Assembly (NCBI GenBank): GCA_956465555.1
Contig: OY101119.1
Span: 1,341,594 to 1,405,593, forward strand
Direction: 5' to 3'
DNA: 64,000 nucleotides
From: Nitzschia sp. pyKryTriq1
Lineage: Eukaryota; Bacillariophyta; Bacillariophyceae; Bacillariales; Bacillariaceae
Positions 3,001 to 64,000 of the stretch are shown here, piece by piece. Each line of letters begins with the position of its first letter. The first letter of the stretch is position 1. The position numbers and the translations under genes were made by a program. Below the pieces are notes generated by a model. That model saw only the letters and a list, made by a program, of their open reading frames with translations. It had not been told where the DNA came from and did not search any database.

Positions 3001-4174
3001 CACGCTTCTCGGAGCATGAATACGACCGCGTGATTAAACTGGTTGAGAAAGGCGAGAAGAAAATCCGAGAAATCAAGTCGCTGGAAAAAGCAGCGAGAAT
3101 ATTTGTCTCCCTATTTGATAATCCCTGGGAGGAGCTTGAATTCTCGCATGTTAATACAAAGGACAAACTCTTCTCGCCCGACAATGATCGCTATCTACTC
3201 TGTTGGACCCATAAGGTAAGCTCAGGAATGCCGGAATTGATTCTCTCTTCCTTTTGATTGCTGATCCCTTCTCGCAATCTGTGTGACAGTATGGCTACGG
3301 CGAGTGGGGAGCTGTGAAGATGGCTATCCGAAGAAGCCCAAAGTTTCGATTTGATTACTTTTTGCGAAGCTTGCCGGTGGATGTACTTGGGCGACGGTGC
3401 GAGCACTTGATGAGAGCTGCTGTGAAAGAGGTCGAAGACCTCGAAAAGAAGGCCAGAGAAGCCGCGGGGCTCCCCACTGTAGCGTTGGAGGGCGAAGAAC
3501 TACCACCAATCGTGCTACCATCTTACAAAGACATGAAACGTAAAGAACGTGGGACGAAGCGAAGTGACATGGACAGCGAGCGATCTCAATTGGAGCACAA
3601 TGTAGACGAACTCGAGACGAAAATGAAAGAGATCCAGGATCGTTTGAAGGAACTGAGTCGGGACATACCAGAGGATCAAAAAGAAAATGTGGTACGAAAT
3701 GGTGGATCTCATATCAAGAAACGCCCACGGGTTGAGGAGGAACGAGCTCCTCGTGAGACAGAACCACAAGATTCGCAGGAGGATGCTAATGGGGCCACCG
3801 GGCCTGATGGGTCTATTGTCGAGTTCCCCCCGTATGATGGATCAGAACCCCCGAAAGAGCCCAAAAAAGCGTTCACTCATTTCTGCATCAACACACGCAA
3901 GGAAGTCAAGCAATCTTTGGATCCTATCGAAAGGAAAGACAAAGAGAAAGTGCACGAAATTCTCAGAGAACGGTGGCTTGAACTTCCAGACGAGGAAAAG
4001 GAGACCTGGCGCATCTGGGCCAACTGGGACAAAAAGCGACATGCTCGGGATTTGGACATTTATGAACGTGCCCAATCCAATGGTGACAAGGGCGGTGCTA
4101 ACGAAGTCAAGGCGCACGACTCGATTGGAGACGATGCATTTGTCCATGTTCCAAAGAAAAAGAAAACGTCGTAA
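1..4174 (+). CDS. ISWI: ISWI-type SNF2 chromatin remodeling ATPase with C-terminal HMG box (5' partial)
   Basis: ATP-dependent nucleosome-sliding enzyme of the nucleus. Coding exons read as 1-594, 675-1084, 1181-3215 and 3290-4174; the start lies before the window, leaving at least 1,307 residues. The visible N-terminus is acidic and then lysine/glutamate rich. The intron at 595-674 splits the Walker A motif, which reads DEMGLGKT across the splice; the DEAH box is at about 995-1008. The helicase C lobe has the DRAHRIGQ motif near 1946. HAND, SANT (about 2848-2990) and SLIDE (about 3080-3450) follow, which is the ISWI signature and separates it from CHD or SWI2 proteins. After an Arg/Glu-rich coiled stretch an HMG-box-like module occupies about 3853-4075 (PKKAFTHFC... 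WRIWA), and the protein ends in a lysine cluster. Most ISWI proteins lack the HMG box. The family call is firm; the HMG call is by pattern. Confidence 0.93.
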
Positions 4175-24241: not shown

Positions 24242-24776
24242 ACCAAGTAGAGTAGAGAGAGGGAGTACTGGTAGTACTACGGTACAAGTACAGTGTACCG
24301 GTACCGGTACTTTGAGCTTGCTTTGGGCGCCTGTAGACGGTCGTACCGTACAGTCTTCCGGAAAAATAAAACAGAAATAGGCCCCCACGTCAGCATTAAA
24401 ACAGATTCTTTTATTTTTCTGGTAGAAACCAGATATTAATGCGCAATATTTCACGGTAAAATCGATGCTACCGAGTGGTAGTTCCGGAAAATTAAAAGAA
24501 TCTTTTTTAATCTTCCGTAGGAACGCAGTAGTACTTTTCAGCAGGCTGGACGGCTGCGATCAATAATTTAGTGTAAAAATGCGATTGAACCAAGTTATTC
24601 GGACTTCCATTTACGTGCAAAACGAGGGCACCAGAATTAGTCTACTGCATACTCTTCTAAACCATGTCTACCACTGAACATCGACACATCGCGAGAAACT
24701 GCTCTGTATCGATCATCGCAATCACCGAAGGAACAAAACTTCCTGCCAGAAGCGAAGCGATTGGCGTCGGATCCGG
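23676..24776. other. Repeat-rich intergenic region
   Basis: Contains a dinucleotide microsatellite (24154-24239), a GTAC patch (24264-24312) and an imperfect inverted repeat: GATTCTTTTATTTTTCTGG near 24403 and its near-complement CCGGAAAATTAAAAGAATC near 24486. No gene was supported. The right edge abuts a gypsy-type LTR. Confidence 0.45.
24154..24239. repeat. (CA)n-(CT)n-(CA)n microsatellite
   Basis: Compound dinucleotide repeat: about eight AC units, then about nine TC units, then about 25 AC units. A minus-strand frame through it is only a cysteine/valine artefact of the repeat. Confidence 0.95.
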
Positions 24777-57013: not shown

Positions 57014-57464
57014 TGTCGAAATTTGTTGATGATTGGAATAACTTTGGTGAAATATTTGAATAATCTGGCTGGGAGGGGTTCGTTGCGTCTCGGATCAATG
57101 CATATTGGTCCATGGCTGCACTTCCTCCGGGTTCTCCCGCGCCGCTTTTTGAATTCAAGCGAGATTGCAGCGCGCCAGGCTTTTCGTTATTTACTGTGTC
57201 GCACCGGCACGGTACTTAATCTACGTAAATGCCCGATCGGTCGTTTGATCCACGCGCCGGCCGGTACCGGTATGCCCACAAGGGCACGACACAAGCCGAG
57301 CCATTCCCTTCGTCATTTCAATCAGAGAGGCAGACGAGCAGAGGCAGGGCGGCAGGCTGGCGGGCGGGCGGGCGGGCTTGGAAAGAAGTCTGAAGTCTGT
57401 ACCAGGTACTTGTACAGTACTTGTACTGTTGTTCAGTACCAGTACTGTACGAACTGTACTGTAC
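57014..57464. promoter_or_regulatory. H2A.Z upstream region and GTAC island at the Crypton edge
   Basis: Upstream of H2A.Z on the minus strand. Positions about 57399-57468 carry GTACTTGTACTGTTGTTCAGTACC and related words; the left end of the Crypton unit falls inside or at the edge of this island. A GC-rich patch (GGCGGGCGGGCGGGCGGGC) lies at 57358-57377. Confidence 0.5.
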
Positions 57465-57468
57465 TGTA
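57399..57468. repeat. GTAC-word island at left border of the Crypton
   Basis: Stacked CAGTACTTGTACTG and CAGTACCAGTACTGTACG words. The tandem unit begins at 57465, within its right end. Confidence 0.75.
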
Positions 57469-57483
57469 GAGTGAGGAGGAATA

Positions 57484-57502
57484 TTATACAACGGTTGTAT
57501 AA
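57484..57502. promoter_or_regulatory. Palindrome TTATACAAC-G-GTTGTATAA near the left end of copy 1
   Basis: Perfect 9-bp inverted repeat with a 1-nt centre. The same half-site recurs near the other end of the unit and again at 61656-61674. Such paired half-sites around a short spacer are typical of tyrosine recombinase binding; the assignment is inference. Confidence 0.5.
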
Positions 57503-57570
57503 CATGACTCAAGACTCGTCACACGACTGCCGACTCTCACGACGTTTGACTACGGAGGGCTGAGACATAA

Positions 57571-57750
57571 TTACGCGTGCTTTTCCCGTGCTTCACAATA
57601 ATAACAAAATATCGCGTACTTTTCCCGTGCTTCAGAACATGAACATGACATAATAATAACAAAATATCGCGTGCTTTTCCCGTGCTTTAGAACATGAACA
57701 TTACATAATAATAACAAAATAACGCGCGCTTTTCTCGTGCTCCGCATGAT
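57571..57750. repeat. 55-bp tandem repeat in Crypton 3' noncoding region
   Basis: About three and a half units of ATCGCGTGCTTTTCCCGTGC followed by TTAGAACATGAACAT and ACATAATAATAACAAAAT, with the outer units shortened. The same array recurs at 61743-61922 in copy 2. Confidence 0.85.
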
Positions 57751-57992
57751 AACGCGTGATTTTCGTTCATCGTCGCGCCATTTTAGTTCGAAACGACGCC
57801 CTCTTCCGTATTAACCATAAGAGATATAGCAACACTACTACTACATAATACTACTCTTTTATATCCTCTACGAATTAGTGCTGTAAAGTATCCGGATTCG
57901 TGGCGTCAAGAATAAAATATTCGAGACGCCAAATGGCCAAAATCACGCGATACTGCTAGTAGTGGCACGAATATTTGCATTTTATATTTCGT

Positions 57993-58188
57993 AATTCCGC
58001 GACGGCTCTAGAGCTCCAAATAAAAAACCACCCGGGCAATCTTTAGTTCGTATATCGATATTGACGCTTGAATTACGGCGGCGTCCAACTCGTCCCCTGG
58101 GATGAGCAATACGGGACGCCCCAAGAGGCAAGTTGAGTTTGTGAAAATGTGAGGCGCGCATCACAAAAATTATCGCGCGATTTTACTA
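57993..58188. repeat. Imperfect direct repeat R1 in Crypton noncoding region
   Basis: About 196 bp, from AATTCCGCGACGGCTC to GATTTTACTA, similar along its length to R2. Shared words include GAGCTCCAAATAAAAAACC and GCAATACGGGACGCCCCAAG. Confidence 0.85.
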
Positions 58189-58230
58189 GCGTTTTGAAAA
58201 TTTGTTCAATTTTGTCTGTCTATGTGTAGC

Positions 58231-58428
58231 AATCCCGAGGCTGCTACAGAGCTCCAAATAAAAAACCGCCCGGGAAATCATTAGTTCGTATATTGATAGT
58301 GACGCTCGAATTACGGCGGCCTCCAACTCATCCCCTGGAACGAGCAATACGGGACGCCCCAAGTGGCAAGTTGAGGTTGTGAAAATGTGAGGCGCGCATC
58401 ACAAAAAAATTATCGCGCGATTTTACTA
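58231..58428. repeat. Imperfect direct repeat R2 in Crypton noncoding region
   Basis: About 198 bp, same orientation as R1 and separated from it by 42 bp; roughly nine bases in ten appear to match. Confidence 0.85.
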
Positions 58429-58502
58429 CGGCCGGCTGATTGTTGTAAAAAATAATGACTTCCTCGCGTGATATGCAAATCGTTTACTATAATATTAATT
58501 AC

Positions 58503-61412
58503 TCACATACACTTTGGGCACGTCACGAATGCTACCTCATCCGTTTCTTTCCCGCAAGGAGCATGGATGTGCTTCCTGCACTTCTTGCATTTATGGGTGG
58601 AATCTGCCATGCCACCGAACAGGCAGTTGGGGTTGGCACAGGGCTGCAAACGGCTAGTACTACTACTACCGGTAGTAGCGGTACGGGTAGTAGCGGTACC
58701 TGCAGTAGTACCGGTAGTAGTACTAATGGTAGCGAAGCAGCTGTTGCATTCCCAGTGCTCACTGTCTTCACCTTGCCGATTGCGTCCTCCGCAGGGGGCA
58801 TGAAAATGCACCTTGCACTTTCTGCAGGCAGAGCCAAAGGCGGCAACCCTGCCCCCAAATAAGCATGTGGTCCCCGCGCCACATGCTACAAAATTATGTT
58901 CGTCGTTCTCGTTCTCGTTCTCATTCATGTCGGTCTCCTCATCATTGTTGTTGTTGTTTTCGTTCTCATTGTTGTTGTTGTTTTCATTCTCATTGTTGTT
59001 GTTGTTAGTAGTAGTAGTAGTAGTAGTAGCAGTACGAGCACGCCGTTGTTGTCGCCTTGGGTAGAGAGTGGTTTTCGCCTGCCGTTTTTTTCTAGGCCCG
59101 CCACTGTGTGCTTGGTTACGACTTGTCGCATCACCCAACTGGGCCTTGTCTTCTTCGGTTCCAAGGCGTTCAATTGTTGATCTTTGAACACGGTTGGACC
59201 AAGTGGCCACGGTCCAAGTGGTGGGATTCCCTTTGGCAAAACAGTACGAGACCTTCCTTTTCAGAACATCGACACACTCATTGTAGTACTGCTCAATAGC
59301 AGCATTGGACATCGTGCTGGTGTCCTGTGGAAGGGCTGTTGTGTTCCCTTCCAAGAAACGAAAGATTGGGGACCATTGAACTCGCATTTTGGTCCCCAAT
59401 CTTTTTGGAAGAAATGATACCGACAATTTCCTAAAAGGTCGCACAACTCGGTTTCCGGGTTGGCTGATGGTCTGGCCCAACAGCCAAAACCGCAAAGCTT
59501 CTTGTAGATTGGCCCGAGGAAATTCGAAGTCCTCGGGTACGTAGTAGAATCTTCCCTGGTACGAATACGTGTTGATTGTAGTAGTAGTAGCAGTAGGATC
59601 GTCATCAAACCCCCCACCGCCAACATCATCATCATCATCATCACTGTTCCTCCTTCTTCCGCCATTGCAGGCAGCCAGTTCCTGTCGAATGGTTGTCAAT
59701 TCCTCTCTCAATGCACCCATCGTTTCCTTTTTGTGGTCCTCCAGAATCGACTTCAATCGGTCTCCCGTCACGTGGCCTGCTTCCCACGCCCGATTCTCAA
59801 GAGAAGTTGATATGGTCTCAACCAGTGTCGTGTTTTGTTGCTCCACCGCTTCAATCAAAAGGCCAGTCTGTTCAGTCAGACGTGTCAGGATGCGATTTTG
59901 CGACACATGAGGGGGTATACCAGTCCGTTCCTCGATCCCGCCTTCTGTCGGTTCCAATGTCACCAGGGCTCGCAACCCTTGTAGTAGTTCCCGGTCATGA
60001 AGAATCGACAATTTCGAAAAGTCGTGACCGGGAAATCGTACCATGTGCGATATCAACGACTCCCCATGAAAAACGACACAGGCAAAGACGCGTAGAAGGA
60101 GTGGCACGAATTCGTCATGTTCCATCATCATCATTGAGCCGTATGTCATGAACATTCCGCGGCGAACTAATTCATTGGCCATTGGATCAGCCATGTTCCA
60201 ATGGGGTGGCAGAGTGTCGAAATCTGCACGCATCGGGTCAAGGCCTGCCAGTATACGCCCAAGGTATTGGTCGCCAACGCTCCCGAAGTGCCAGTAAAGA
60301 TCAAGGACTGACCCAATACTCCATTCACCGCGCCTTGCAATGGAAGGAATTGGAGGTGGGACTGTGGTTCCCGCAACTGCATAGGTTGCCGATCCCTTCC
60401 GCAATCCATACGGATTGAAACTTGCCGCACGCATATGATTTTTCAATGTCTCAATGTGTGGTGCAACGACGCCCATAACTTGCTCGCAATACTTTTTTGC
60501 CGCAACACCATACATAACGCCCTTCTCCAAAAAGAAACGAGCGTTGCCTTTGAGCTGTTCACCGCGGAGAGCCAGCCAAACCCCGAGACCTGTCCAGAAA
60601 CACTGTCGCCAATCGAAGGGGTTGGCATAAATGTTCTTTTCCGACAACCGCTCACCCGCCTGGTCGGCCTTCGATAGGTCGTATTTCCCGACAATGGAAT
60701 CTGATCCAAGTGTGAAATTCCGAAAGGCCAAAGGATCAATGGAGGCACATCGTGCCATGAAATTCCATTGCGCCAACGACCAAAACCAAACGAAAATATT
60801 GTTTGAGTTTATGGCCCACTGTAGCAACAGCCTGTATAAGGACACAGGAATCGGATCAGCAGCTGTTTCATCGACATTGCCGTCTTTTTTTGCTTTTGTA
60901 TATTCCTTTTTATACCCCGACAGGAAGTTGTCGAACATTGTGTAGAATTTGGCGGGCAGAAGTACACCTGCCCGTTTAGCCCCCCACATAATAGCATCTT
61001 TGTACTTGCGAAGGTCGTCAACGGTCTTTAATTTCCCAGTATCCTTGCGCTTCGTGCATACTAGGAAATGGAGGACGAACTGATCATTGAGGCCCTCGTA
61101 CCGTAGGTCCTTGTCATACTGGCCAAAATAATACTTTGATGAATCTGCTAGCTCTGTAGCAGAAACATCGTGCACTCCCACCTGGTAATACTCAGGCGAC
61201 TCATCCTGCCAGAACCGAATGATCCGTGCAATCCTTTGCCGGTAGTTCCTGCGGCACTTGTCGTCCATTGACTGTCGTTCGGTCTCATTGTAGCGCTCTG
61301 CTAAATCAGACGGTGGCGCAAGATCTGCTCCAATCGTGGCAACAGCATCATTCGTTTCTCGTTGTTGGGGGTGAATGCGGCCACCACGATGTCCTCCTCG
61401 TTGTGCCGACAT
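58503..61412 (-). CDS. Crypton tyrosine recombinase with two C-terminal zinc-binding modules
   Basis: Presumed transposase that cuts and joins DNA through a covalent tyrosine link. Single exon, 969 residues, ATG at 61412. The core (about residues 100-390) has a helical DNA-binding half and a catalytic half with the expected order: Arg221 in NFMARCAS, Lys248 in DLSKADQ, the box GLRKGSATYAVAG with Arg338 where the usual upstream His is Tyr335, Trp364 in RGEWSIG, and Tyr373 in DLYWHFGSVGDQYLGRIL. The wording RKGSATYAVAGTT and GDQYLGR is the Crypton YR pattern. Then come a leucine/Glu-rich helix (about 540-625), an acidic DDDDDDD loop, a Thr/Asn-rich linker, and two related zinc modules (about 837-893 and 922-969), each CLFGG...C-x2-C...HxHAPCG...C-x2-C. 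The reading frame is open throughout, so the gene may be active. Confidence 0.8.
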   Translation of the reverse strand: MSAQRGGHRGGRIHPQQRETNDAVATIGADLAPPSDLAERYNETERQSMDDKCRRNYRQRIARIIRFWQDESPEYYQVGVHDVSATELADSSKYYFGQYDKDLRYEGLNDQFVLHFLVCTKRKDTGKLKTVDDLRKYKDAIMWGAKRAGVLLPAKFYTMFDNFLSGYKKEYTKAKKDGNVDETAADPIPVSLYRLLLQWAINSNNIFVWFWSLAQWNFMARCASIDPLAFRNFTLGSDSIVGKYDLSKADQAGERLSEKNIYANPFDWRQCFWTGLGVWLALRGEQLKGNARFFLEKGVMYGVAAKKYCEQVMGVVAPHIETLKNHMRAASFNPYGLRKGSATYAVAGTTVPPPIPSIARRGEWSIGSVLDLYWHFGSVGDQYLGRILAGLDPMRADFDTLPPHWNMADPMANELVRRGMFMTYGSMMMMEHDEFVPLLLRVFACVVFHGESLISHMVRFPGHDFSKLSILHDRELLQGLRALVTLEPTEGGIEERTGIPPHVSQNRILTRLTEQTGLLIEAVEQQNTTLVETISTSLENRAWEAGHVTGDRLKSILEDHKKETMGALREELTTIRQELAACNGGRRRNSDDDDDDVGGGGFDDDPTATTTTINTYSYQGRFYYVPEDFEFPRANLQEALRFWLLGQTISQPGNRVVRPFRKLSVSFLPKRLGTKMRVQWSPIFRFLEGNTTALPQDTSTMSNAAIEQYYNECVDVLKRKVSYCFAKGNPTTWTVATWSNRVQRSTIERLGTEEDKAQLGDATSRNQAHSGGPRKKRQAKTTLYPRRQQRRARTATTTTTTTNNNNNENENNNNNENENNNNNDEETDMNENENENDEHNFVACGAGTTCLFGGRVAAFGSACRKCKVHFHAPCGGRNRQGEDSEHWECNSCFATISTTTGTTAGTATTRTATTGSSSTSRLQPCANPNCLFGGMADSTHKCKKCRKHIHAPCGKETDEVAFVTCPKCM

Positions 61413-61462
61413 GATGCTGTAGTACTAATAGTAGTACTGCAGGAAAATGAGGTACTGCGGAT

Positions 61463-61486
61463 GATTATACAGCCAGATGTATAATC
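61463..61486. promoter_or_regulatory. Inverted repeat GATTATACA-N6-TGTATAATC
   Basis: Perfect 9-bp arms with a 6-nt spacer (GCCAGA), about 50 bp before the recombinase start codon on the coding strand. Candidate recombinase binding or operator site. Confidence 0.5.
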
Positions 61487-61559
61487 TTCCGAAAGTACTG
61501 GCAGGGATGGCCCATTGAAGTAGAATTTACACGAGCAAATACTTCCAGTACTTTCGGAA
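61487..61559. promoter_or_regulatory. 15-bp perfect inverted repeat with 43-nt loop in Crypton promoter
   Basis: Arm TTCCGAAAGTACTGG at 61487-61501 and its exact complement CCAGTACTTTCGGAA at 61545-61559. Could form a stem or bind a dimeric protein. Confidence 0.6.
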
Positions 61560-61562
61560 AAA

Positions 61563-61579
61563 TATACAAATCTTGTATA
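61563..61579. promoter_or_regulatory. Inverted repeat TATACAA-N3-TTGTATA
   Basis: Perfect 7-bp arms with 3-nt spacer, same half-site as at 57484-57502. A further single half-site TTGTATAAC lies at 61614-61622. Confidence 0.5.
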
Positions 61580-61655
61580 ACAGAGAAAACCACGTGTCCA
61601 CGACTCATCGGACTTGTATAACTTTCCGCAAGACTGTGTAGAGTGAGGAGGAATA

Positions 61656-61674
61656 TTATACAACGGTTGTATAA
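61656..61674. promoter_or_regulatory. Palindrome TTATACAAC-G-GTTGTATAA near the left end of copy 2
   Basis: Exact copy of 57484-57502, now only about 80 bp from the half-sites of copy 1's promoter, making a cluster of four to five half-site pairs around the copy junction. Confidence 0.5.
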
Positions 61675-62164
61675 CATGACTCAAGACTCGTCACACGACT
61701 GCCGACTCTCACGACGTTTGACTACGGAGGGCTGAGACATAATTACGCGTGCTTTTCCCGTGCTTCACAATAATAACAAAATATCGCGTACTTTTCCCGT
61801 GCTTCAGAACATGAACATGACATAATAATAACAAAATATCGCGTGCTTTTCCCGTGCTTTAGAACATGAACATTACATAATAATAACAAAATAACGCGCG
61901 CTTTTCTCGTGCTCCGCATGATAACGCGTGATTTTCGTTCATCGTCGCGCCATTTTAGTTCGAAACGACGCCCTCTTCCGTATTAACCATAAGAGATATA
62001 GCAACACTACTACTACATAATACTACTCTTTTATATCCTCTACGAATTAGTGCTGTAAAGTATCCGGATTCGTGGCGTCAAGAATAAAATATTCGAGACG
62101 CCAAATGGCCAAAATCACGCGATACTGCTAGTAGTGGCACGAATATTTGCATTTTATATTTCGT

Positions 62165-62360
62165 AATTCCGCGACGGCTCTAGAGCTCCAAATAAAAAAC
62201 CACCCGGGCAATCTTTAGTTCGTATATCGATATTGACGCTTGAATTACGGCGGCGTCCAACTCGTCCCCTGGGATGAGCAATACGGGACGCCCCAAGAGG
62301 CAAGTTGAGTTTGTGAAAATGTGAGGCGCGCATCACAAAAATTATCGCGCGATTTTACTA
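62165..62360. repeat. R1 repeat of Crypton copy 2
   Basis: Equivalent of 57993-58188 at offset 4,172. Confidence 0.85.
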
Positions 62361-62402
62361 GCGTTTTGAAAATTTGTTCAATTTTGTCTGTCTATGTGTA
62401 GC

Positions 62403-62600
62403 AATCCCGAGGCTGCTACAGAGCTCCAAATAAAAAACCGCCCGGGAAATCATTAGTTCGTATATTGATAGTGACGCTCGAATTACGGCGGCCTCCAACT
62501 CATCCCCTGGAACGAGCAATACGGGACGCCCCAAGTGGCAAGTTGAGGTTGTGAAAATGTGAGGCGCGCATCACAAAAAAATTATCGCGCGATTTTACTA
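62403..62600. repeat. R2 repeat of Crypton copy 2
   Basis: Equivalent of 58231-58428 at offset 4,172. Confidence 0.85.
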
Positions 62601-62674
62601 CGGCCGGCTGATTGTTGTAAAAAATAATGACTTCCTCGCGTGATATGCAAATCGTTTACTATAATATTAATTAC

Positions 62675-64000
62675 TCACATACACTTTGGGCACGTCACGA
62701 ATGCTACCTCATCCGTTTCTTTCCCGCAAGGAGCATGGATGTGCTTCCTGCACTTCTTGCATTTATGGGTGGAATCTGCCATGCCACCGAACAGGCAGTT
62801 GGGGTTGGCACAGGGCTGCAAACGGCTAGTACTACTACTACCGGTAGTAGCGGTACGGGTAGTAGCGGTACCTGCAGTAGTACCGGTAGTAGTACTAATG
62901 GTAGCGAAGCAGCTGTTGCATTCCCAGTGCTCACTGTCTTCACCTTGCCGATTGCGTCCTCCGCAGGGGGCATGAAAATGCACCTTGCACTTTCTGCAGG
63001 CAGAGCCAAAGGCGGCAACCCTGCCCCCAAATAAGCATGTGGTCCCCGCGCCACATGCTACAAAATTATGTTCGTCGTTCTCGTTCTCGTTCTCATTCAT
63101 GTCGGTCTCCTCATCATTGTTGTTGTTGTTTTCGTTCTCATTGTTGTTGTTGTTTTCATTCTCATTGTTGTTGTTGTTAGTAGTAGTAGTAGTAGTAGTA
63201 GCAGTACGAGCACGCCGTTGTTGTCGCCTTGGGTAGAGAGTGGTTTTCGCCTGCCGTTTTTTTCTAGGCCCGCCACTGTGTGCTTGGTTACGACTTGTCG
63301 CATCACCCAACTGGGCCTTGTCTTCTTCGGTTCCAAGGCGTTCAATTGTTGATCTTTGAACACGGTTGGACCAAGTGGCCACGGTCCAAGTGGTGGGATT
63401 CCCTTTGGCAAAACAGTACGAGACCTTCCTTTTCAGAACATCGACACACTCATTGTAGTACTGCTCAATAGCAGCATTGGACATCGTGCTGGTGTCCTGT
63501 GGAAGGGCTGTTGTGTTCCCTTCCAAGAAACGAAAGATTGGGGACCATTGAACTCGCATTTTGGTCCCCAATCTTTTTGGAAGAAATGATACCGACAATT
63601 TCCTAAAAGGTCGCACAACTCGGTTTCCGGGTTGGCTGATGGTCTGGCCCAACAGCCAAAACCGCAAAGCTTCTTGTAGATTGGCCCGAGGAAATTCGAA
63701 GTCCTCGGGTACGTAGTAGAATCTTCCCTGGTACGAATACGTGTTGATTGTAGTAGTAGTAGCAGTAGGATCGTCATCAAACCCCCCACCGCCAACATCA
63801 TCATCATCATCATCACTGTTCCTCCTTCTTCCGCCATTGCAGGCAGCCAGTTCCTGTCGAATGGTTGTCAATTCCTCTCTCAATGCACCCATCGTTTCCT
63901 TTTTGTGGTCCTCCAGAATCGACTTCAATCGGTCTCCCGTCACGTGGCCTGCTTCCCACGCCCGATTCTCAAGAGAAGTTGATATGGTCTCAACCAGTGT
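62675..64000 (-). CDS. Crypton tyrosine recombinase, copy 2 (5' beyond window)
   Basis: C-terminal about 442 residues of the same protein as at 58503-61412, identical in reading, from ...TLVETIS to the stop after CPKCM. Includes the acidic loop, Thr/Asn-rich linker and both zinc modules. The catalytic core should lie just past the window edge. Confidence 0.85.
   Translation of the reverse strand, partial: TLVETISTSLENRAWEAGHVTGDRLKSILEDHKKETMGALREELTTIRQELAACNGGRRRNSDDDDDDVGGGGFDDDPTATTTTINTYSYQGRFYYVPEDFEFPRANLQEALRFWLLGQTISQPGNRVVRPFRKLSVSFLPKRLGTKMRVQWSPIFRFLEGNTTALPQDTSTMSNAAIEQYYNECVDVLKRKVSYCFAKGNPTTWTVATWSNRVQRSTIERLGTEEDKAQLGDATSRNQAHSGGPRKKRQAKTTLYPRRQQRRARTATTTTTTTNNNNNENENNNNNENENNNNNDEETDMNENENENDEHNFVACGAGTTCLFGGRVAAFGSACRKCKVHFHAPCGGRNRQGEDSEHWECNSCFATISTTTGTTAGTATTRTATTGSSSTSRLQPCANPNCLFGGMADSTHKCKKCRKHIHAPCGKETDEVAFVTCPKCM

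Follow-up and report, generated by a model that had tools for sequence, protein, structure and literature searches.

Introduction

Transposable elements that encode tyrosine recombinases are thought to move through circular intermediates. The closest described counterparts of the element analysed here are the Cryptons, and especially the CryptonS group of oomycetes and a diatom. They are single-protein DNA transposons of about 4 kb without a reverse transcriptase or DDE domain, they occur in low copy number together with internally deleted, non-autonomous derivatives, and they have no terminal inverted repeats at their very ends, where a short terminal direct repeat is the presumed recombination substrate (Kojima and Jurka 2011, PMC3212892). 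According to the same paper, Crypton transposition was unstudied as of 2011. The circle model for these elements is one by analogy. Here, we describe a 4,172-bp Crypton-like element that is present as a head-to-tail tandem in a stretch of 64,000 nucleotides (hereafter the window) from the diatom Nitzschia sp. pyKryTriq1. The window corresponds to C5:1341594-1405593 in a genome of 40.65 Mb in 20 contigs. The genome has 72 matches to the chlorophyll a/b-binding family, which mark it as that of a photosynthetic eukaryote; a PDB comparison was not diagnostic of the host, and a search for a TTAGGG telomere run found none.

The element, which belongs to the first of two related families (families 1 and 2), shares with the Cryptons all of the features listed above. 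Unlike the majority of CryptonS, which end in TATGG (PMC3212892), it has the termini TACTGTA...ACTG. It further differs from CryptonS in having the 7-bp core TACTGTA on its left end, C-terminal Cys/His modules, tandem occurrence and no C48 peptidase or profile match. The terminal direct repeats are 7 bp long (TACWGTA at the right of family 1, variable at the right of family 2), slightly over the 4-6 bp of Cryptons; as in Cryptons, long direct repeats are absent from the ends, and inverted arms are found in subterminal positions only.

Two bacterial systems offer additional points of comparison. In the strand-biased elements (SEs; PMC9345347, PMC10214605), the core spacer is inherited from a single side, as though one strand were exchanged, and joining of the ends creates imperfect inverted repeats that flank a short spacer; both traits have a likely counterpart here. 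In contrast to the present element, in which the core is at the left end, the spacer of the SE circle lies at the right end after integration. SEs are also bacterial and encode two recombinases and two further proteins, and SEs and Tn554 are both characterised by two tyrosine recombinases with accessory genes, whereas each element here has one large open reading frame (ORF). The integrative element SGI1 resembles the present one in forming head-to-tail arrays at its attachment site (PMC2297512). Its arrays are persistent and lie at specific attachment sites, whereas the tandems described here are eukaryotic and their inner junctions lack part of the core. No report of a tandem Crypton was found in the open literature, searched by titles and abstract openings, with most subscription papers outside the search; in PMC3212892, the word tandem occurs in one reference title only.

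Results

Two identical units with a non-canonical junction

Exact comparison of the window with itself returned a repeat offset of 4,172 bp, with mismatch-free identity from position 57465 over 4,173 bases, the extra base being a T common to both copies. The tandem consists of two identical units placed exactly end to end: the second abuts the first with no spacer, differs from it at 0 of 4,172 positions and ends 1,808 bp past the window edge, so that position 64000 (unit position 2364) marks the edge of the window and not of the element. A sequence-only reading of this stretch had described a 4,172-bp unit followed without spacer by a second copy in the same orientation, and the coordinates, length, orientation and identity that it gave are all borne out. 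It took an open 969-residue frame to suggest recent activity; the frame is intact and identical in both units, and the transposon is young (see below). Among the matches listed in a whole-genome DNA search, only the two tandem copies are full length; this search scored the best candidates only, among which any full-length copy would be top-ranked. Together, these observations suggest that the tandem formed recently at this locus.

If the two ends were joined with the core intact, the junction would read AAGACTG-TACTGTA-GAG. The window junction reads AAGACTG-TGTA-GAG and is 3 bp (TAC) short, exactly at the inferred crossover. A second tandem of the same family, on C17, has the junction AAGAC-TGTA-GAG, which is 5 bp short. 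In genome-wide pattern searches, GCAAGACTGN{0,12}TGTAGAGTGAGG was found at the window junction only and GCAAGACN{0,15}TAGAGTGAGGA at the window and C17 junctions only. Both tandems (4172 bp in the window, 1853 bp on C17) are joined within 5 bp of the element ends, and their sequences suggest two separate events, each an imprecise joining of one element end to the other. Because neither junction is canonical, a simple and precise circle insertion is not recorded here. The earlier proposal that the dimer arose by insertion of a circle beside or into an existing copy is not supported in the form given, as the full junction that it predicts is absent from the window and C17 tandems alike. Unequal exchange between flank repeats was also considered and was rejected, since the junction lacks any (GTACT)n flank.

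Dispersed copies of family 1

Both ends could be read at ten family-1 loci: the tandems in the window and on C17, and eight further loci (C5 at 1.415, 1.666 and 1.944 Mb, C10, C4, C9, C7, and C2). Weaker or partial matches (C14, C8, C11, C3, C1, C13, and others) were kept out of the end statistics. The first and last bases are common to all ten loci. Internal deletions are present at all nine loci outside the window, and intact family-1 frames were found in the window tandem only. The rearrangement junctions within the family show microhomology of 0-1 bp in nine of ten cases and of 4 bp in the remaining one. Relative to the intact unit, each dispersed copy carries 2 to 8 substitutions over the aligned parts, with the subterminal repeat (101-277) left out, and family 1 is therefore young. 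A 1,592-bp derivative is present in identical form at two sites that lie 250 kb from each other and have unmatched 1-kb flanks; it has therefore moved in trans. Two internally deleted copies, L012 (C10) and L013 (C4), each lie within a single open frame, of 615 and 590 codons, respectively, so that shortened proteins are possible.

The C17 tandem comprises two 1,855-bp derivatives head to tail with a period of 1,853 bp. The units are identical (0 differences over 1855 positions) and share a deletion (1245/3617) that occurs at none of the other nine family-1 loci; the second unit was therefore made from the first, or both came from the same parent at this locus. The copy at C5 1.944 Mb has the order 1-275, a 1,901-bp insertion, 220-1382, 3290-3826, 971-1499 and 3515-4172. 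Judged by this order, it looks like a head-to-tail dimer that has lost three internal stretches; a lone derivative in which an internal part was duplicated would give the same picture. The insertion (L019:2055-3955, C5 ~1.9435 Mb) lies within the subterminal repeat of this dimer-like copy and has no match to the unit.

Ends, core and target in two families

A paralogous family, family 2, helps settle which bases belong to the element. Its protein is 49% identical to that of family 1, and open frames are present at C5:0.36 Mb and C12. Fifteen family-2 right ends were read and 14 counted, one (L060) being left out for a missing base, and pairing of ends by spacing and strand gave seven loci with both ends. 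One of the right ends counted lies in the window itself (24351-24543, minus strand), where about 190 bp that are 90% identical to family 2 are followed by TACGGTA.

TAC directly precedes the left end TGTAGAG at nine of the ten family-1 loci; after the right end ACTG comes TACTGTA at seven loci and TACAGTA at three. The right cores of family 2 are TACTGTA at 3 of 14 ends and vary at the rest, including TAAAGTA, CTAGCTA, TATTATT, and TGCCTGA. Left and right ends differ in how often they have TACTGTA, with 22/24 on the left and 10/24 on the right over both families (Fisher p about 5e-4). The same p was obtained with 21/23 left ends when one of two family-2 left ends with similar flanks (L067 and L074) was removed, so that the duplicated locus was counted once. 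The left side reads TAC at all seven paired family-2 loci; the right side reads TAC at four loci, TAA at C6 and CTA at C5:0.36 Mb, and the C2 locus is unscorable as its end base is lost. A target duplication is absent at two of the six scorable pairs (C6 and C5:0.36 Mb), and the other four fit either reading. These sequences are most simply explained if the left core moves together with the element and the right core is the target. On this evidence, the element appears to insert just before a TACWGTA-like site, without target duplication, keeping the left core TACTGTA and ending on the right in ACTG.

The copy of family 2 on C12 initially offered a cryptic left end, which was rejected: the true left end is further out, at C12:1316734, and the copy is interrupted. 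About 905 bp (C12:1317062-1317967) are inserted in its left part (L034); the query overlaps by 8 bp at the break, as expected if another transposon had made an 8-bp target duplication.

A dyad centred on the core

The predicted circle junction was built as right end, TAC and left end. The joined ends of family 1 contain an 8-bp inverted repeat, TTGTATAA/TTATACAA, and those of family 2 another, CTGTTTTA/TAAAACAG, both centred on the W of TACWGTA. In each family, this core-centred dyad is top-ranked among the centres scanned, and a run of at least this length at the core centre was obtained in 0.0006 of 5,000 mononucleotide arm shuffles. The arms lie about 15-20 bp away from the core and do not adjoin it. 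The sites of tyrosine recombinases have inverted repeats of 11-13 bp around 6-8 bp (PMC3212892). By analogy, arms in dyad symmetry around a 7-bp core would represent this type of layout, with the arms here distant from the core. The dyad core site and the apparent lack of a target duplication are as would be expected for a circle-forming recombinase.

The encoded protein

The 969-residue protein has an Asn/Glu-rich tract and C-terminal Cys/His-rich, zinc-finger-like modules, with weak LITAF-like and PHD matches under the Pfam cut-offs. No further ORF longer than 152 amino acids exists within the unit. Differences between families 1 and 2 number 152, 120 and 292 at the three codon positions over 440 codons; they are concentrated at third positions, and the ORF is conserved between the families. 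R221, YxxR338, W364, and Y373 (family-1 numbering) are kept in both families, and give the pattern Y/HxxR...W...Y. The W-to-Y spacing of nine residues equals that of Cre and the H-to-Y spacing in lambda Int. The block PYGLRKG...RRGEW...Y...YLGR presumably resembles the Crypton proteins of oomycetes and diatoms. Neither a reverse transcriptase nor a DDE transposase was found in Pfam scans of the proteins of both families; GCR1_C, the DNA-binding domain of CryptonF, has no Pfam match in either family, and no C48 peptidase match was found in the family proteins. Searches for relatives outside this genome, with patterns that omitted the YxxR and W/Y blocks, returned none from viral contigs (whole protein, residues 1-440, and catalytic region) or from genome contigs (catalytic region). 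From its sequence, the protein is probably a Crypton-like tyrosine recombinase, a label that we use because of the catalytic-motif spacing and the DNA anatomy.

The C-terminal Cys/His module is found on its own (amino acids 896-968, 52% identical, with three in-frame TAA in each case) at six places: C6:2411488, C13:779164, C15:737187, C15:302734, C5:994889, and C6:1486844. Another repeated element may share this module.

Feature coordinates

Table 1. Features of the tandem, in window positions
Feature	Position	Strand	Remarks
Left core TACTGTA at the outer left end	57462..57468	+	apparently carried by the element; TACTGTA at 9/10 family-1 and 13/14 family-2 left ends
Unit 1 of the tandem (4,172 bp)	57465..61636	.	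exact repeat at offset 4172
Left inverted arm TTATACAA	57484..57491	+	dyad scan
Subterminal repeat tract, unit positions 101-277	57565..57741	+	same in both units; length and sequence differ among dispersed copies
Pair of 200-bp direct repeats located 3' of the ORF (86% identity)	57970..58407	+	
969-residue ORF, candidate tyrosine recombinase	58503..61412	-	R221, Y335-x-x-R338, W364, Y373
Right inverted arm TTGTATAA	61614..61621	+	in the predicted circle junction, symmetric with the left arm, the W of the core being the centre
Head-to-tail junction AAGACTG/TGTAGAG, core without TAC	61630..61643	+	unique in the genome in the form searched
Unit 2, first 2,364 bp	61637..64000	.	repeat and genome search; the rest runs to C5:1407401 (window-equivalent 65808)
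Same ORF in unit 2, C-terminal part	62675..64000	-	open, runs on to window-equivalent 65584

An observation on the assembly

Matches at C1:3.87-4.64 Mb and C3:2.72-3.49 Mb (L024-L027) form colinear pairs at an offset of 1.137-1.147 Mb, near two contig ends. The two regions, 99.6-99.8% identical in the two stretches compared, appear to be a terminal duplication or an unmerged haplotype of at least about 0.77 Mb.

Discussion

We tentatively favour the reading that a young Crypton-like DNA transposon was recently duplicated in place, through a joining of the ends of one resident copy with a loss of 3 bp. In the proposed mechanism, the protein would excise the element by joining ACTG to TACTGTA, through a circle or an inter-sister exchange, and so create a core site with dyad symmetry; the excised element would normally insert just 5' of TACWGTA. 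At the window locus, the two ends of the same resident copy would have been joined, either by a circle returning to its own locus or by an exchange in which the right end on one sister chromatid met the left end on the other, and the 3 bp would have been lost at the crossover point. Damage to the inner core would mean that the dimer no longer resolves to a monomer and that only the outer ends are functional. Pairs with an intact core might resolve and vanish, which would explain why neither of the two surviving tandems has an intact inner core. The dimer may thus be locked by the loss of its internal core.

Several results weigh against this reading. The canonical junction AAGACTG-TACTGTA-GAG that it predicts is present in neither of the two tandems, an equivalent pattern search of the genome for a family-2 tandem junction returned none, and the 6-bp microhomology ACTGTA fully explains the C17 junction, where a recombinase is not needed. 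Neither a circle nor an empty site was observed. In family 2, an off-core centre has an equal run of 8, with fewer total matches (14 versus 24 of 40). The protein would be a recombinase by motif alone: no tyrosine-recombinase match was found in Pfam (whole protein and parts), in PHROGs and NCBIfam (both with the catalytic region only) or among PDB sequences, and Pfam, PHROGs and NCBIfam searches of the catalytic region taken to E-values of up to 10 gave nothing useful. In hhalign alignments, neither Cre nor lambda Int exceeded a probability of 0.5%, which is not significant; the short local match to Cre lay on the GxW motif. Two AlphaFold2 models built from a two-sequence alignment were unusable (mean predicted local distance difference test scores of 33 and 37). 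The Crypton-type label of the sequence-only reading is thus supported by the motif spacing and the DNA anatomy and finds no support in the profile, PDB-sequence and hhalign comparisons. Finally, SGI1 tandem arrays persist through serial passage (PMC2297512), which weakens the idea that pairs with an intact core vanish. Such stable intact tandems make the favoured reading less likely and a duplication by repair more likely.

A local duplication without any recombinase, by template switching or end joining of the termini via short repeats (ACTGTA on C17, a single T in the window), is accordingly a serious contender. We consider it doubtful on balance, yet it stands close behind recombinase-initiated joining and is fully sufficient for C17, where a 6-bp microhomology accounts perfectly for the junction. 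With 1 bp of microhomology and part of the core missing, the window junction could be of the same kind, and the other rearrangement junctions of family 1 are low in homology as well (0-1 bp in 9/10, 4 bp in 1/10). However, the breakpoints of each tandem fall within 5 bp of the two element ends, as those of random repair rarely would, and the homology at the window junction is almost nil, leaving little to steer repair to the ends. Alternatively, a circle closed without TAC may have entered the resident copy by homologous recombination over the 4.17 kb of identity and kept its junction. A single imprecise event of this kind would yield both the odd junction and the complete identity of the units; by sequence, however, its product is the same as that of the other routes, and we regard it as unlikely.

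An assembly artefact, with one copy or a circle represented twice, would also produce identical units, and a similar doubling is seen on C17. We judge this quite improbable, as the junction sequence is found nowhere else in the genome and was therefore probably carried by a real molecule, the window and C17 tandems differ in their junctions, and the C1 and C3 stretches were kept apart at 99.6-99.8% identity (two places compared), which suggests long accurate reads. We give the least weight to a very improbable reading in which the element would be of the DDE type and duplicate a 3-bp TAC target, the tandem being a DDE head-to-tail dimer. TAC does start all ten family-1 right flanks and end nine of the ten left flanks, it is present on both sides at four of the seven paired family-2 loci, and no profile match establishes a tyrosine recombinase. 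The two family-2 pairs with TAC on the left and TAA (C6) or CTA (C5:0.36 Mb) on the right nevertheless rule out a 3-bp target-site duplication there and largely refute this reading. In addition, the W of the family-1 core is T at all ten left ends but either T (7) or A (3) at the right ends, the core of the joined ends is the centre of the dyad, and no DDE domain was found with Pfam.

A more speculative and rather unlikely reading is that of a eukaryotic tyrosine-recombinase transposon in which the core always remains on the left end, as though a single strand were exchanged (copy-out, compare SEs and Tn554). Its local re-insertions would yield head-to-tail dimers, which would persist only after destruction of the inner core, and the window tandem would be a locked master locus with the only intact family-1 genes of the genome.

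The two related families (10 loci with both ends, 22 loci with one or both ends) point to a concrete attachment site, with proposed arms, core, target and crossover, and the predicted circle junction of a eukaryotic circle-type transposon is testable. The two tandems suggest the fate of a copy duplicated beside itself and why dimers may be stable; the prediction is that dimers which prove stable have a broken inner core. One-sided inheritance of the core, if true, would connect a eukaryotic element with the strand-biased elements of bacteria.

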